From NCBI GenBank assembly GCA_029891345.1, contig CM056994.1, forward strand, positions 220,824,491-220,888,490: a stretch of DNA of 64,000 nt. Direction: 5' to 3'. Position numbers and translations under genes: made by a program. This stretch comes from Dryococelus australis. Lineage: Eukaryota; Arthropoda; Insecta; Phasmatodea; Phasmatidae. Shown here piece by piece: positions 31,150 to 64,000 of the stretch. The stretch's first letter is position 1. Each line of letters begins with the position of its first letter. The notes under the pieces were generated by a model that was given only the letters and a program-made list of their open reading frames with translations, had not been told where the DNA came from and did no database searches.

Positions 31150-32515
31150 TGCATACTGCTTATACTAATTATCTGCAATGATTACGACTCATCTCACTGC
31201 AACCCTAGTGTACTACTACTACACACGTAGATTCAAACTCCGCGCCATCTCGTATATGGAAGTAATGGTCTGCCACAATTCTGTAGGGCCGGCGAACACA
31301 TGGGTACGAGGGGATGCGAAAGACAGCAAGCAGTGCGTCACCCCTCTCCCCCCGTGCTGAGAGCCTACAAGCAACCAGCTGCTTCGGGACATGCCAGAGC
31401 GCCACCAAAGATATGTGAAGGCCAAGAGATAACTAGAGGGTGCTACCCCCACTCCGGCCTTGCAGCAGAGGGACGACACACGCTACCCTAACTATATAAG
31501 TCAGTGCATGGCAGTCCTCGTCAGTTGTTCCTGCAGTCTTCTCCGAGCACCTGGGTGCTGGAGCTTACTACTACTGCTAAATCTTCAACAGCCTTTCCAG
31601 AGGCTGTTGTCAACGACTCAACAGTCTTCAGCAGGCACCAGAGGCTGCCACCCTTGACGTCGCCATTAGAGCTCTACAGCACAGCTACTGGACACTCCAG
31701 TGCTGCCAATCGCCAATATCCACCAATAACTTTCTGTAGCTACCAGACCTACCACATGTAACTTCTTTGTCTCCTACAGACATGCCACTTAGAGTTAGGT
31801 TTGTATTAAGTAATTTTCGACAGTTTGTATTTCACTTCCCCAACTAGCCTAGGACCAGGTCACCTACACCTGGCTACCGTAGGATTACTACCCAACCACC
31901 GGACTTCTTGGCAGGAGAGCACGTGCCACCATGTTTAATAAGCTCTTAATAAACATGGTTTTGTTTCTCTTAACTGCGAGTCTCATTCATAGAGTACTTT
32001 GTAACCACTGCTGAGAGGACCTCGAGCTGAGTACCGCAGACTTGAAACGGGAAGTTGTTATTATTACTATGAATTAGCTACAACTGGAGAATCCCCCTCG
32101 GGTGGCCTCAAGTTTAATACACACCAATTAGATGGCCATTTGTTATATTCCTACCAAGGAGGAGTAGAATAGAGGAGCCCCGACCACTAGCAACACTTCT
32201 CAACCAAGGAGAGAGAGTACATTTATGTTGTATCATTAATGGAGCACCTGGGTGCTGGCGGGGGTATTTACTTTGGTTCTACGGCCTGGCCTTGGTTGGG
32301 ATCGCACACCCAGTAATAGTCTTGGCAACCCATACTGCTCCAATGCTTCTGATCCGTCCGCAACCGTGGAAGATCTTCTGAAGCACCGGAGTGCGCGTTG
32401 GCAAACTGTCACCAGGCAACACTAATTTAGGGCTATCTGTGTGCAGAAGTAGTACAGTAAGGTTGCAGTGAGATGAGTCGTAATCGTTTATAGTTATTGG
32501 TATAAGCGGCTTGCA
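31150..32515 (+). mobile_element. LTR-like unit A with 55-bp inverted termini
   Basis: 1.37 kb. It begins TGCATACTGCTTATAC and ends GTATAAGCGGCTTGCA. The outer 55 bases at each end are inverted repeats: 25 bases are identical (from GGTTGCAGTGAGATGAGTCG on) and about 43 of 55 match overall. Inside are TATATAAG (31493-31500), two copies of a hairpin (31546-31559 and 32243-32256), and AATAAA (31948-31953). Unit B (39883-41200) is a close copy lacking the right terminus. A may be the 5' LTR plus leader of the gag-pol that follows, or a separate insertion; see findings. Confidence 0.75.
31493..31500 (+). promoter_or_regulatory. TATA box of unit A
   Basis: TATATAAG, conserved in B (40239-40246) and C (42473-42480). 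In each unit a perfect hairpin follows about 50-65 nt downstream, in the likely 5' end of the transcript, and AATAAA follows about 370-460 nt downstream. Confidence 0.7.
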
Positions 32516-39882: not shown

Positions 39883-41200
39883 CCATGCCGCTTATACCAA
39901 TTATCTACAACGATTACGAATCATCTCATTACAACCCTAGTGTACTACTTCTACACACGTGAGATTCAAACTCCACGCCATCTCTCATATTTAAGTAACA
40001 GTCTGCCACAAACCTGGAGGGCGGCCGGACACGTGGATACGAGGGGTTGCAATGACAGCAAGTGATCCACCTCCCCCCTCCCCCGCACTGAGAGCCAACA
40101 AGCAATCAACCGCTTCGGAGCATGCCCGAATACCACCGAAGATATGCGAAGGCTGAGAGATAACCTCCACTCCGGCCTTGCAGCAGAGGGACGTTACACG
40201 CATTCCCCCATGGCCGCCGCGACACACGCAACACTGAATATATAAGTCCGCGCACGGCGGACCTCGAGAGTTGTTCCTCCAGTCTTCTCCGAGCACCTGG
40301 GTGCTGGAGCCTAGTACTACTGCTAGATCTTCAACAGCCTATCCAGAGGCTGTCACCAACGACTCAACAGTCTTCAGCAGCCACCAGAGGCTGCCATCCT
40401 TGATGTCAGCGTTAGAGCTCTGCAGCACCGCTACCGGACGCTCCTGCGCCGCCAATCACCAATAGCTACCAGAAGCTTTCTGTACCTACCAGATATACGA
40501 CATGCAACTTCTTTGTCTCCTACAGACACCCCGCTTAGAGTTAGGTTTGTATTAAGTAATTTTCGACAGTTTGTATTTCACTTCCCCAACTAGCCTAGGA
40601 CCAGGTCACCTACACCTGGCTGCCATAGGATTACTACCCAACCACCGGTCTTCTTGGCAGAAGAGCACGTGTCACCATGTTTAATAAGCTCTTAATAAAC
40701 ATGGCTTTGTTTCTCTTACCTGCGAGCCTCATTCATAGAGGACTTTGAAGCCAACTGCTGGGAGGACCTATAGCCGAGTACCGCCGACCGGAAACTGGAA
40801 GTTATTATTACTACGAATTAGCTACAACTGGAGACTCCCCCTCCGGTGGCTCCAAGTTGAATATACACATATTAGACGGCCATCAATTTTATTCCTACCA
40901 AGTATACAGGTACTGGAGGAGTGGAATAGAGGAGCCCCGACCACTAGTAACACTTCTCAACTAGGGAGAGACAGTACATCTGAGTTGTATCCGTACCGGA
41001 GCACCTGGGTGCTGGCGGGGCTATTTGGTAAGGTGCTATGGCCTGGCCTTGGTTGGGATCGCACAACCAGTAATAGTCTTGGCAACCCATACGCCTCCAA
41101 TGCTTCTGATCAATTTGTAATCATGGGGGATCTTCTGAAGCGCCGGAGCGTGCGTTGACAAACTGTTACCAGGCAACACTAATCTAGGGCTATCCGTGTC
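39883..41200 (+). mobile_element. LTR-like unit B
   Basis: Close copy of unit A in the same orientation. It starts ATGCCGCTTATACCAATTAT, has TATATAAG at 40239-40246, hairpins at 40292-40305 and 41000-41013, and AATAAA at 40694-40699. Similarity to A ends at GGGCTATCCGTGT (41200), about 60 bp before A's right inverted terminus, so B is truncated or joined to other sequence there. It lies downstream of the gag-pol and third ORF in the place of a 3' LTR. Confidence 0.75.
40239..40246 (+). promoter_or_regulatory. TATA box of unit B
   Basis: TATATAAG at the same place as in A. The downstream TTGTTCCT.CAGTCTTCTCCG and hairpin are conserved with A. Confidence 0.65.
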
Positions 41201-61518: not shown

Positions 61519-61760
61519 ATGCCGATCTGAGCGCAACCGCAAAAAAGTGACTCAAAAAGTTGCGTTTGGGAGCACTTGCAAAAAAAAAAATAAAAAGTTG
61601 CATTTGAGCACAACCGCAAAAAAAGCGACTCAAAAAGAAAAGTTGCATTTGGTTAGATCATAGTCTTTAGAAAAAAAGTCGTGTTAAACTTTGCATTTGA
61701 GTGCATCTGCAAAAATATGCGTAAAAAGTTGCGTTTGGGCGCAGTTGCAAATAAAGAAGG
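61519..61760 (+). repeat. Polinton subterminal repeat array
   Basis: Five or six imperfect units of 38-48 bp, each starting TTTG(A/G)G and holding a GCA(A)CCGCAAAAAA block and AAAAAGTTGC(G/A). The junction AGTTGCGTTTG.GCGCA..TGC can fold as a small hairpin (GTTGCG against CGCAAC). The position just outside the first ORF fits the terminal inverted repeat of a Polinton, which often carries tandem repeats; the other terminus is not in the window. Confidence 0.65.
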
Positions 61761-62065
61761 ATCAGTTGCTAAATGTATTAAACGGAACCAAACAATTTAA
61801 GAAACTTTATGAACTTACAATTGGACAGTCCTATCCCATAAACCATGCTGAAATAAATGATACACTGTATGGACAGAAAGTGGTAATTACTTCTGGAAAT
61901 TTTTAAATAACCTTACCAGACAGATATGTTCAGATTTTCAGTGAAAAAGTTTTAAATGATGTTAATTGTGGAGGTATAAGTTGTGTACATGATGGAATGG
62001 TGGATTGTGGTGTTAAACAAATGCATTCTATTCAGTATTTTAAAGAAAAAATGATCGTCGTATAA
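61691..62065 (+). pseudogene. Small Polinton-linked ORF with one in-frame stop
   Basis: A single frame runs from the repeat array to TAA at 62063-62065, with one TAA at 61904-61906. The protein-like part starts near 61765 and includes KLYELTIGQSYPINHAEIND, TLYGQKVVITSGNF and, after the stop, LPDRYVQIF. The pattern (short, ..YPI..., YG..V..., LP.RY) resembles small proteins I associate with insect mobile elements, perhaps an OB-fold DNA-binding protein, but I cannot name it. The first codons may be repeat-derived. It converges on the penton-like gene; a palindrome lies 44 nt after its stop. Confidence 0.5.
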
Positions 62066-62108
62066 TTAGATATCAGTTGATTTTTATTTGTGTCCATATC
62101 TCTATAAA

Positions 62109-62136
62109 GTTTTAATGGTTATCCAATCATTAAAAC
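62109..62136. terminator. Gene-end palindrome 1
   Basis: GTTTTAATGGTT, loop ATCC, AATCATTAAAAC: a 12-bp stem (one G-T pair) with a 4-nt loop. It starts 44 nt past the stop of the 61691-62065 ORF. It shares TTTAATGG and the 4-nt loop with palindromes 2 and 3. Confidence 0.6.
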
Positions 62137-62302
62137 ACAATTATCACTCTGACTTCGGTAATGTGCTACAACATAGTCTAATTTAAAATTTAGATACACA
62201 TATCCAAATTCGACATATTAAAGTAGCCGAAACATTGAATTTTTTTTTTTTAAATCTTTCATTGCACTTTCTATAGAAATATTATTCATCTTTATCGCAT
62301 GA

Positions 62303-62332
62303 AACTTTAATGGTTTTTAAACTATTAAAGTT
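62303..62332. terminator. Gene-end palindrome 2
   Basis: AACTTTAATGGTT, loop TTTA, AACTATTAAAGTT: a 13-bp stem (one G-T pair) with a 4-nt loop. It lies 41 nt past the stop of the minus-strand penton-like gene (62373). Confidence 0.6.
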
Positions 62333-62372
62333 ATTATATATAGAATATGACTACTTCCAACCCAAAAAATAT

Positions 62373-63098
62373 CTATGGTCTCATCTCTAATACCACTCTT
62401 CTTTTGGACAAATCAAAGTTAATTAACTTACCTTTTTCATCCTTAATTTCAACTATTATTTCATTAACTTGATTTGTTTGCACTGGAAAAAATTATGGAT
62501 AAGCTGGTTCGTAATAGATCTTGTCGCCAAATCCAAATGTTGTTTTGGTTTAAAAGTGGTAATTATGTTAGTTTCTCTATGATTATATTCATCATGTTTT
62601 AATATCATACCATTTACTATATTACAGTGTATATTTAATGCTTCAAATGGAGCAAATTTTGGAATTGTATAGCCATAATGATCCACATTTGCTTTGAGAG
62701 TTTTATTTTCTACGAAACCCAAAAGTTTTACTACTGAACCCCGTTTTCCAAACTGTAATTTAAGCGTACATTTTACTTTCACTCTGTTCGTTATTTTATC
62801 TAGCTCGAAAGCTATATCATTTTCTTACCCATCCATTGAATCTACACTAAATGAAAAAATTGCTTTTATAGTTTTTTCAAGATCTTTTAAGCTATATTGG
62901 CCAACTGGAATATCAATTGCTGATTCTATATCATTCTGACCCACAAAATATAGCTTATTTTTCCCGAGATAATGTTATGCGTTAGATAAGTAGTATAGAC
63001 TGAACTAAACCCAATGAGTGCCCCTCTATCTCTAAAGGGTAATGCAGTCTTTTCTTCAACACTGATTTGTTATCTGTTAGTTTGAATACTTCACTCAT
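62373..63098 (-). pseudogene. Polinton penton-like (minor capsid) gene, broken
   Basis: From ATG at 63098 to TAG at 62373 the region codes about 240 residues, near the size expected of the Polinton penton (single jelly-roll) protein that forms the capsid vertices. The middle (62456-62827) is the clearest: FGKRGSVVKLLGFVENKTL, FAPFEALNIHCNIVNGMI and a polar tail. After the last break the end carries an EIKDEKGKLINF block, which is characteristic of penton C-termini. Breaks: a frameshift near 63055, an in-frame stop at 62825-62827, and a frameshift near 62455. It is transcribed divergently from the ATPase, 32 bp away. The family assignment is by pattern and position. Confidence 0.6.
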
Positions 63099-63130
63099 TT
63101 ATTATATTATTTAAAAAAATCTATTAATAA
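63099..63130. promoter_or_regulatory. Shared divergent promoter region
   Basis: Only 32 bp, all but two of them A or T, separate the start codons of the penton-like gene (minus) and the ATPase (plus). It contains TATATTATTTAAAAAAA and must hold both promoters unless they lie inside the genes. Confidence 0.5.
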
Positions 63131-63828
63131 ATGAGCAAGAAAAACATGAAAAATGTAAACTGGGATATTAAAATAAGAATACCGGACAAGACTGTATCGA
63201 CAAAACATCACGGAGAATTATTACCTAATAATATTAGATGTTTGATAGTGGGTCCTAGTCACTGTGGAAAAACTACACGTATGATAGATAATTTTATATA
63301 TGCTCAGGGATGGTTGGACTTTGGTACTGTCTATGTTTGTTCAAAAAGTCTGGCCCAACCAAAATATATCAATTTAAAGAAAGATATAGATGCAGCACCA
63401 AAATTATTTAATAAACCGATAGCATACTTCTTTCCATCAAATGAAGAAATGGTTGATGTAAATGAATGTCATAAAGAGTCTATAGTTGTTTTCGATGATA
63501 TCATACTTGAAAATCAAAATATGGTAAGGGATTACTTTACTTGCGGTAGACACAAAGATATTGTTTCTATTTAGCCCAGACATACTCAAAAGTACCAAAG
63601 CAGCTTATAAGAGACAATGCCAAATTTCTTTGTATATTCAAACAAGATGATACAAATCTTAAACATATTCATAGTGATTTTGTTGGCGGTGATATGTCGT
63701 TTGAGAAATTTAGGGAGACTTGTTCAAAATGTTGGAATAATGAATATGGTTTTGTTACAATAGATATGACTCATAAGTTAAATAATGGTAAGTACTGTAA
63801 CAAAATTAAAGACTTTTTAAATTCTTAG
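63131..63828 (+). pseudogene. Polinton packaging ATPase (FtsK/HerA type), one frameshift
   Basis: The ATPase that would pump DNA into capsids. The first frame (63131-63574) shows the Walker A motif GPSHCGKTT (63250-63276), the Walker B motif IVVFDDII (63483-63506), and YFTCGRHKD near 63535, where the family has a sensor region. The frame then ends at 63572-63574, but an adjacent frame continues the same family pattern (QTYSKVPKQLIRDNA, IFKQDDTNLKHI, CSKCWNNEYGFVTID) to TAG at 63826-63828. A single-base change near 63570 explains this. The total of about 230 codons fits the family's usual size. I chose ATG 63131 because it follows the AT-rich spacer and precedes the conserved start. Confidence 0.85.
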
Positions 63829-63844
63829 ATTATAAGAAAGTTTT

Positions 63845-63874
63845 GTTTTTAATGGAAGTGTTTCCATTAAAAAC
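63845..63874. terminator. Gene-end palindrome 3
   Basis: GTTTTTAATGGAA, loop GTGT, TTCCATTAAAAAC: a perfect 13-bp stem with a 4-nt loop. It sits between two convergent stops, 17 nt after the ATPase stop and 19 nt from that of the minus-strand ORF, so one palindrome could serve both. Confidence 0.7.
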
Positions 63875-63892
63875 TAACATAATCTGATCTTT

Positions 63893-64000
63893 TTAAATGT
63901 ATTCATATATCATAACTATTTCAATAAACACAATTGTACCTTCGGGTACGTTGTAGGCTTTTGGTATTTTAAAATATACCATATCATCAGGGTATTCTTC
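63893..64000 (-). CDS. Partial unknown Polinton ORF (C-terminal end)
   Basis: The last 35 codons of an ORF that enters from beyond the window, reading YPDDMVYFKIPKAYNVPEGT and ending IVMIYEYI before TAA at 63893-63895. It has no stop over this length and lies convergent to the ATPase. I do not recognise it; in Polintons a capsid gene often lies near the ATPase, but nothing here proves that. Confidence 0.55.
   Translation of the reverse strand, partial: EEYPDDMVYFKIPKAYNVPEGTIVFIEIVMIYEYI

Follow-up and report, generated by a model that had tools for sequence, protein, structure and literature searches.

The last 2.4 kb of a 64,000-nucleotide stretch of Dryococelus australis DNA (the window) are part of a decayed Polinton, within which three short palindromes lie shortly past stop codons. 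The question raised by this locus is whether these palindromes end the transcripts of the element's genes and, if they do, whether their shape or their sequence would be read.

Four genes of the element are visible in the window. Gene 1 is a small ORF on the plus strand (61804..62065, defined like g4 by stop-to-stop frames) with an in-frame stop in the window copy; it was spanned by a blastn match in 25 of the 29 other copies of the window's family (family A), and its best comparison to PHROGs reached only an E value of about 0.1. A penton-like gene on the minus strand (62373..63098) is broken in the window copy. Its label follows the original prediction. The window piece had no Pfam or PHROG family, two candidate relatives (none at E 0.001), one PDB match (E 0.16) and a predicted fold of no use (mean pLDDT 31.5), and a 243-aa penton-like open frame in three loci of a second family (family B) with printed ORFs was without a Pfam or PDB match, so the name is tentative. 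An A32-like packaging ATPase of Polintons follows on the plus strand (63131..63828); it is broken near 63562-63574, with the frame running from 63131 to 63574 and then in another frame up to 63828. The divergent gap between the penton-like gene and the ATPase holds an 11-bp dyad (63094..63135), in which TAATAAATGAG is the mirrored start context of both genes. The fourth gene, g4, is represented by its 3' end on the minus strand (63893..64000), runs beyond the window and has a 197-aa frame in the same three family B loci.

Assignment to the Polinton/Maverick (adintovirus-like) elements was made through relatives of the ATPase, many of which carried PF04665 (closest from the first search 50-54% identical); the window's broken ATPase piece had no Pfam family above the cut-off. 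An ATPase search of the same genome returned at least 150 places, the window's included (best 150 of 18,537 first-look candidates scored). ATPase alignments against viral_contigs/genome_contigs gave 68, 61 and 588 pattern-matching stretches, none of which was confirmed as a relative, and tblastn against phages and plasmids gave no relatives. Two ATPases of Polinton type that are listed as Bacillus cereus and Staphylococcus aureus proteins (P0016 and P0117) are probably animal DNA inside bacterial assemblies. When the window's own locus was extended by the next 4 kb (L151), a run of minus-strand genes (g4, protease-like, phospholipase A2) and plus-strand genes were seen. The phospholipase A2 piece matched PF08398 (E 1.8e-11) and is of a kind known from Polintons; the protease-like pieces were recognised by eye and had no match in the Pfam search, and neither had two pieces that we take to be integrase. 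At the element's left edge (61525-61758), diverged tandem repeats lie beside a long GT run, and blastn matches to other copies mostly began at 61581-61750.

The three palindromes were found as the original prediction had described them, with stems of 12-13 positions, 4-nt loops and a location just past stop codons. The first (hp1, 62109..62136) has 12 positions and the loop ATCC, and the second (hp2, 62303..62332) has 13 positions and the loop TTTA; each includes one G.T position, which becomes a wobble when the RNA is plus-strand and an A.C mismatch when it is minus-strand. The third (hp3, 63845..63874) is a perfect 13-bp stem with the loop GTGT, centred in the 64-nt convergent gap between the ATPase and g4, and it can be extended to 16 positions with one mismatch (63842-63877). 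Unpaired gaps of 43 nt and 40 nt separate the palindromes from the stops of gene 1 (which ends at 62065) and the minus-strand penton-like gene (which begins at 62373), and gaps of 16 nt and 18 nt separate hp3 from the stops of the ATPase (ends at 63828) and g4 (begins at 63893). Each of the element's four gene ends that fall within the window thus has a palindrome shortly past its stop codon. Both hp1 and hp2 lie in one convergent gap, between gene 1 and the penton-like gene, and the window therefore holds two junctions rather than three independent ones.

The number and shared register of the palindromes are more than chance. Three palindromes were present in 2.43 kb, compared to a mean of 0.335 in dinucleotide shuffles (three reached in 0 of 200) and of 0.37 in a second shuffle test (16 of 2,000), and none of 293 overlapping 2.43-kb stretches in the rest of the window held three. 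Two nearly identical palindromes at 31928-31959 and 40675-40704, far from the Polinton, are likely a dispersed repeat. The arms of hp1, hp2 and hp3 have an 8-base run in common in the same register to the loop; among 200,000 triples drawn at random from chance palindromes, none matched this. The common core that had been proposed from this run was retained only in shortened form, as the TTTAATGG of hp2 is private to the window copy: the pair 62312/62323 was A-T in 27 of the 29 other copies, A.G in one and gapped in one, with G at 62312 in none. With the family form of hp2 (TTTAATAG), the common run would be six bases, a length that 13 of the 200,000 triples reached. The core that did not vary in seven hand-picked hairpins is TTTAAT/ATTAAA. 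RNA folding gave about -14 kcal/mol for hp3 on both strands; for hp1 and hp2, values were -8.8 and -10.6 kcal/mol on the plus strand and -5.3 and -6.3 kcal/mol on the minus strand, where the folds are weaker because of the one G.T position in each. Folds of the surrounding 100 nt were only modestly better than those of shuffles (z -0.93 to -2.71).

Other family A copies were scanned for palindromes with a stem ≥ 11, a loop of 3-8 and ≤ 1 mismatch. In the 29 other copies, the two convergent gaps made up 10,565 of the 68,701 bp scanned (15%) and contained 57 of the 59 palindromes, with 31 in the first gap and 26 in the second. The other two were in the penton-like gene; gene 1, the ATPase, the divergent gap, g4 as far as it is visible and the left flank had none, the flank including 5,350 bp left of gene 1. 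Palindromes are thus present in other copies and rare inside genes (2 of 59), both of which had been proposed as checks. Adding 20 more copies gave 49, in which hairpin loci found by similarity numbered 46 for hp1 (of which that of L148 is probably false), 45 for hp2 and 47 for hp3. Counting pairs on the plus strand only, and including G.U, stems were fully paired in 23 of 46, 11 of 45 and 24 of 47 loci, respectively, and had ≤ 1 bad pair in 42, 29 and 36. In this decayed family the core was intact in both arms in 34 of 46 (hp1), 13 of 45 (hp2) and 36 of 47 (hp3) loci. Stem divergence among copies was 0.035-0.071 versus 0.052-0.064 for the surroundings, so no constraint after insertion is visible, as expected for dead copies. 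Ten further copies, chosen for unusual frame length or lower identity, had hp1 in nine, hp3 in ten and hp2 in two. Seven of them and L127 have a common short form without hp2; hp2 can therefore be absent from a junction that still has hp1. The hp2 of L128 contains 11 extra bases that repeat its own arm and loop sequence, a trace that template switching might leave.

Family B (L154-L163) consists of ten loci with 232-aa ATPase frames without stops. Their longest matches to L154 were 97-99% identical, which makes this the younger family, and they were 81-83% identical to the window at the DNA level over 1.6-1.8 kb. All ten carry hp3; six have ≤ 1 bad pair on the plus strand, none is perfect there, and the flaw in L155 is a wobble in minus-strand RNA. 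Nine carry hp2, whose loop here is 8 nt long and whose stem has 13 matching pairs; in seven of the ten loci it stands alone as a stretch of 44-80 bp that resembles family A, in two it lies inside a longer match, and in one it is missing. Although the finder reported ten hp1 loci in this family, eight of these are hp2, and hp1 was truly seen in two, with arms that are the reverse complement of those in family A. To the left, the family B loci are mostly unlike family A, and 6,470 bp of this part contain 21 palindromes, of which two are hp1 and the others differ in sequence; this argues against a plain restriction of palindromes to gene ends outside the element core. The proposed comparison with flanking DNA thus came out as expected in family A and the opposite way in the left part of family B. 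In g4 and the protease of family B, one palindrome was found in 13,740 bp, inside the protease frame. A hairpin-like stretch beyond g4 in L154 (12 positions, one mismatch) was rejected as a gene-end hairpin because it is inside the protease-like frame; at that cut-off it was present in L154 only.

The stems of seven hairpins from the window, family A and family B were compared; these were picked by hand and are mostly intact, so the percentages lean high. The six core pairs (TTTAAT with ATTAAA) were invariant in all seven, and the seven other pairs had changed on both sides and were still paired except in one cell (98.9% of cells paired). The covariation score was 0.476 versus 0.194 in shuffles, none of which (0 of 500) scored as high. 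Genome-wide, exact TTTAATGG-N8-CCATTAAA occurred at 1,775 sites versus four for the reversed control, and this pattern is element-specific. Among 50 sites listed, 26 were hp3-like, 21 belonged to a fourth hairpin with the inner bases ATGGTTAT and three were others; in nine listed cases the fourth hairpin lay 4.2-5.3 kb from an hp3-like site (for example, C1:71067053 and C1:71072009 in the same genome). A scan of IMG/VR for TTTAATGG palindromes gave at least 120 loci; among the matches listed, 96 of 120 were within ORFs and 100 of 120 had 8-9-bp stems, so they were regarded as mostly chance.

In the stretch seen, hairpins mark convergent junctions and not every gene end. Across 5 kb of L151, hp3 is the sole short-loop palindrome, the other inverted repeats being a 30-nt-spaced one within the ATPase and the divergent dyad, and the run of same-direction genes has none. 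In L154 the protease-like frame extends past the start of g4. Both observations fit one shared 3' end per unit, and nested transcripts perhaps share one 3' end at convergent units. A diverse set of ATPases from the same genome (group D, 12 loci, L204-L215, G+C 0.37-0.46) belongs to Polintons with another gene order. These loci contained nine other palindromes, none with the TTTAAT/ATTAAA core; among the five with printed ORFs, the ATPase of four is followed by an ORF in the same direction or by read-through and L208 is ambiguous, and with this layout group D does not test the convergent-junction rule.

On either strand, the invariant core reads as a poly(A) hexamer of animals. In the window, the first ATTAAA downstream of every one of the four stops belongs to a hairpin's 3' arm; exceptions that count against a role for it are a TATAAA at +38 past gene 1 and a later AATAAA at +95 past the ATPase. 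The five family B loci compared, out of ten, had no AATAAA within 160 nt past three stop codons. In these, the only ATTAAA in that interval past the ATPase was the hairpin 3' arm (5/5), and the same was seen past g4 in four of the five, the fifth having none; past the penton-like gene, an earlier ATTAAA at +15 lies outside the hairpin (5/5), which again counts against it. When the genome was searched for copies with a poly(A) tail past the ATPase stop, one match was returned, unrelated by eye.

The placement of the hexamer in the 3' arms favours a bidirectional poly(A)-type signal in a hairpin. We regard the palindromes, with roughly even confidence, as putative 3'-end signals common to converging Polinton transcripts, with AUUAAA in the 3' arm; recurrence at junctions in two families, kept pairing and the invariant core support this. 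A palindrome would be placed where two transcription units converge, and transcription of either strand would give nearly the same 12-13-bp RNA hairpin shortly past the stop codon, each with AUUAAA, a common animal poly(A) hexamer, in its 3' arm. One element would end both messages, probably via the host cleavage and polyadenylation machinery, and would keep them out of each other's coding sequence. We infer from sequence that RNA 3' ends may form at the palindromes and that the hexamer, rather than shape alone, may be what is read. Further points count against this: a hexamer within a stem should be hard for the host machinery to reach, hp2 is missing in eight of the ten further copies, no constraint after insertion is visible in family A, and the window's hp1 and hp2 fold much less well on the minus strand. 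A wider claim, that animal Polintons end convergent units with orientation-free, flip-flopping hairpins in place of the ordinary AAUAAA arrangement, as a structure-assisted 3'-end code in a nuclear animal host akin in kind to that of giant viruses and virophages, seems doubtful as yet.

The loops bear on each of the alternatives. For hp2, 45 family A loci had TAAA in 23 and TTTA in 17; for hp3, 47 had GTGT in 35 and ACAC in two, and ten further copies had GTGT in six and ACAC in three. The hp1 loop was GGAT rather than ATCC in one of nine further copies and in none of 46 family A copies. The alternative loops of each hairpin are reverse complements, and both orientations were seen in hp1, hp2 and hp3. 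TTTA and TAAA differ at two bases, which substitutions could explain, whereas the loops of hp3 and hp1 differ at all four. The loop is unlikely to be a signal that is read, given both orientations in all three hairpins and the 8-nt loop in family B, and base pairing between the arms probably occurs at some point at the DNA level.

The main rival is that a nuclease or polymerase recognises the hairpin itself and the core is merely inherited, which was in essence the original prediction of a mimivirus-like signal. Gene-end position and recurrence in two families supported that prediction; the restriction to convergent junctions, the conserved core, the sublineage without hp2 and the core itself being a poly(A) hexamer did not. 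We consider recognition of structure alone possible but rather unlikely. Pairing kept with changes on both sides, loops in both orientations and loop lengths of 4, 6 and 8 nt are all what it would expect, and it has precedents in mimivirus, Sputnik, marseillevirus and yeast linear plasmids (PMC4402537, PMC6723459, PMC5413956, PMC6211774). For mimivirus, a hairpin signal not conserved in sequence and cytoplasmic transcription by a viral apparatus are reported (PMC4402537), whereas TTTAAT/ATTAAA is invariant in the seven hairpins compared; Sputnik has the signal at the end of 16 genes (PMC6723459). AT-rich palindromes past stop codons, usable in both directions, are the likeness to these two systems, and the conserved core, the restriction to convergent junctions in the stretch seen and the animal host are the differences. 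Palindromes of marseilleviruses are reported at gene ends irrespective of how the next gene is oriented (PMC5413956), and the same-direction run of L151 shows no such pattern. The mimivirus hairpin rule is thus an analogy only.

Intergenic concentration is also comparable to that in marseilleviruses (Noumeavirus, Melbournevirus): 66.8% of Noumeavirus palindromes lie in 10% of the genome, between ORFs, and one 3' end was validated by experiment (PMC5413956), whereas the Polinton hairpins are known from their sequence alone. Yeast cytoplasmic linear plasmids (pGKL) likewise place a stem loop a few tens of nucleotides from the stop codon (median 26 nt); these stem loops have no common motif, a median of -7.5 kcal/mol, a U-enriched end and RNAs without a poly(A) tail (PMC6211774). 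The Polinton hairpins range from -5.3 to -14.2 kcal/mol depending on the hairpin and the strand, have a common core and, unlike the plasmid stem loops, are without a U-run, which argues against a purely structural signal. In a literature search, mostly of open-access papers, no recognised account of how animal Polintons end their transcripts was found among the matches listed; PMC11071296 contained none of the searched terms.

Functionless palindromes could also perpetuate themselves, if replicative template switching between the arms mended mismatches and flipped the loop, and would then persist and covary through mutation alone. Small inversions in hairpin loops between close relatives occur in chloroplast intergenic DNA, where a loop between matching arms likewise inverts; here, the inversions are in a Polinton family of an animal, and copies of the one family differ in loop state. 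Besides the presence of both orientations in all three hairpins, the hp1 of L233 has a flipped loop alongside perfect arms, and hp2 loop states were unclustered over a mostly unresolved tree (13 changes versus a shuffled mean of 12.5, with three of 28 inner branches well supported). A process that flips loops could also mend arms, and the covariation is therefore weaker evidence for function than it looks. Mutation alone leaves unexplained both the position at convergent ends in two families at 81-83% DNA identity and the in-register common core, and we judge it distinctly unlikely as a full account.

A DNA-level element (a dyad binding site, a replication or packaging signal, or a recombination hot spot) is quite improbable. 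Inverted loops do suggest that the arms pair as DNA, and TTTAATGG half-sites with a spacer resemble a dimer site, but the non-core bases change in pairs, which two half-sites do not need, and palindrome location tracks gene ends. A histone-type 3' stem-loop and a bacterial-type intrinsic terminator were rejected, the former since an Rfam cmscan of 61800-64000 with an E cut-off of 5 returned three hits, each below its gathering score and all of small nucleolar/Cajal-body types, and the latter for want of a U-run, the stems being followed in gene direction by ACAAUU, UCAUGC, UAACAU and AAAACU.

In the inverted loops, an amplifying element has kept a record of hairpins formed in its DNA. Should the palindromes prove to be 3'-end signals, they would mark Polinton transcription units without RNA data, would connect Polintons with virophages and giant viruses through their hairpin signals, and would suggest how tightly packed convergent genes escape antisense overlap.
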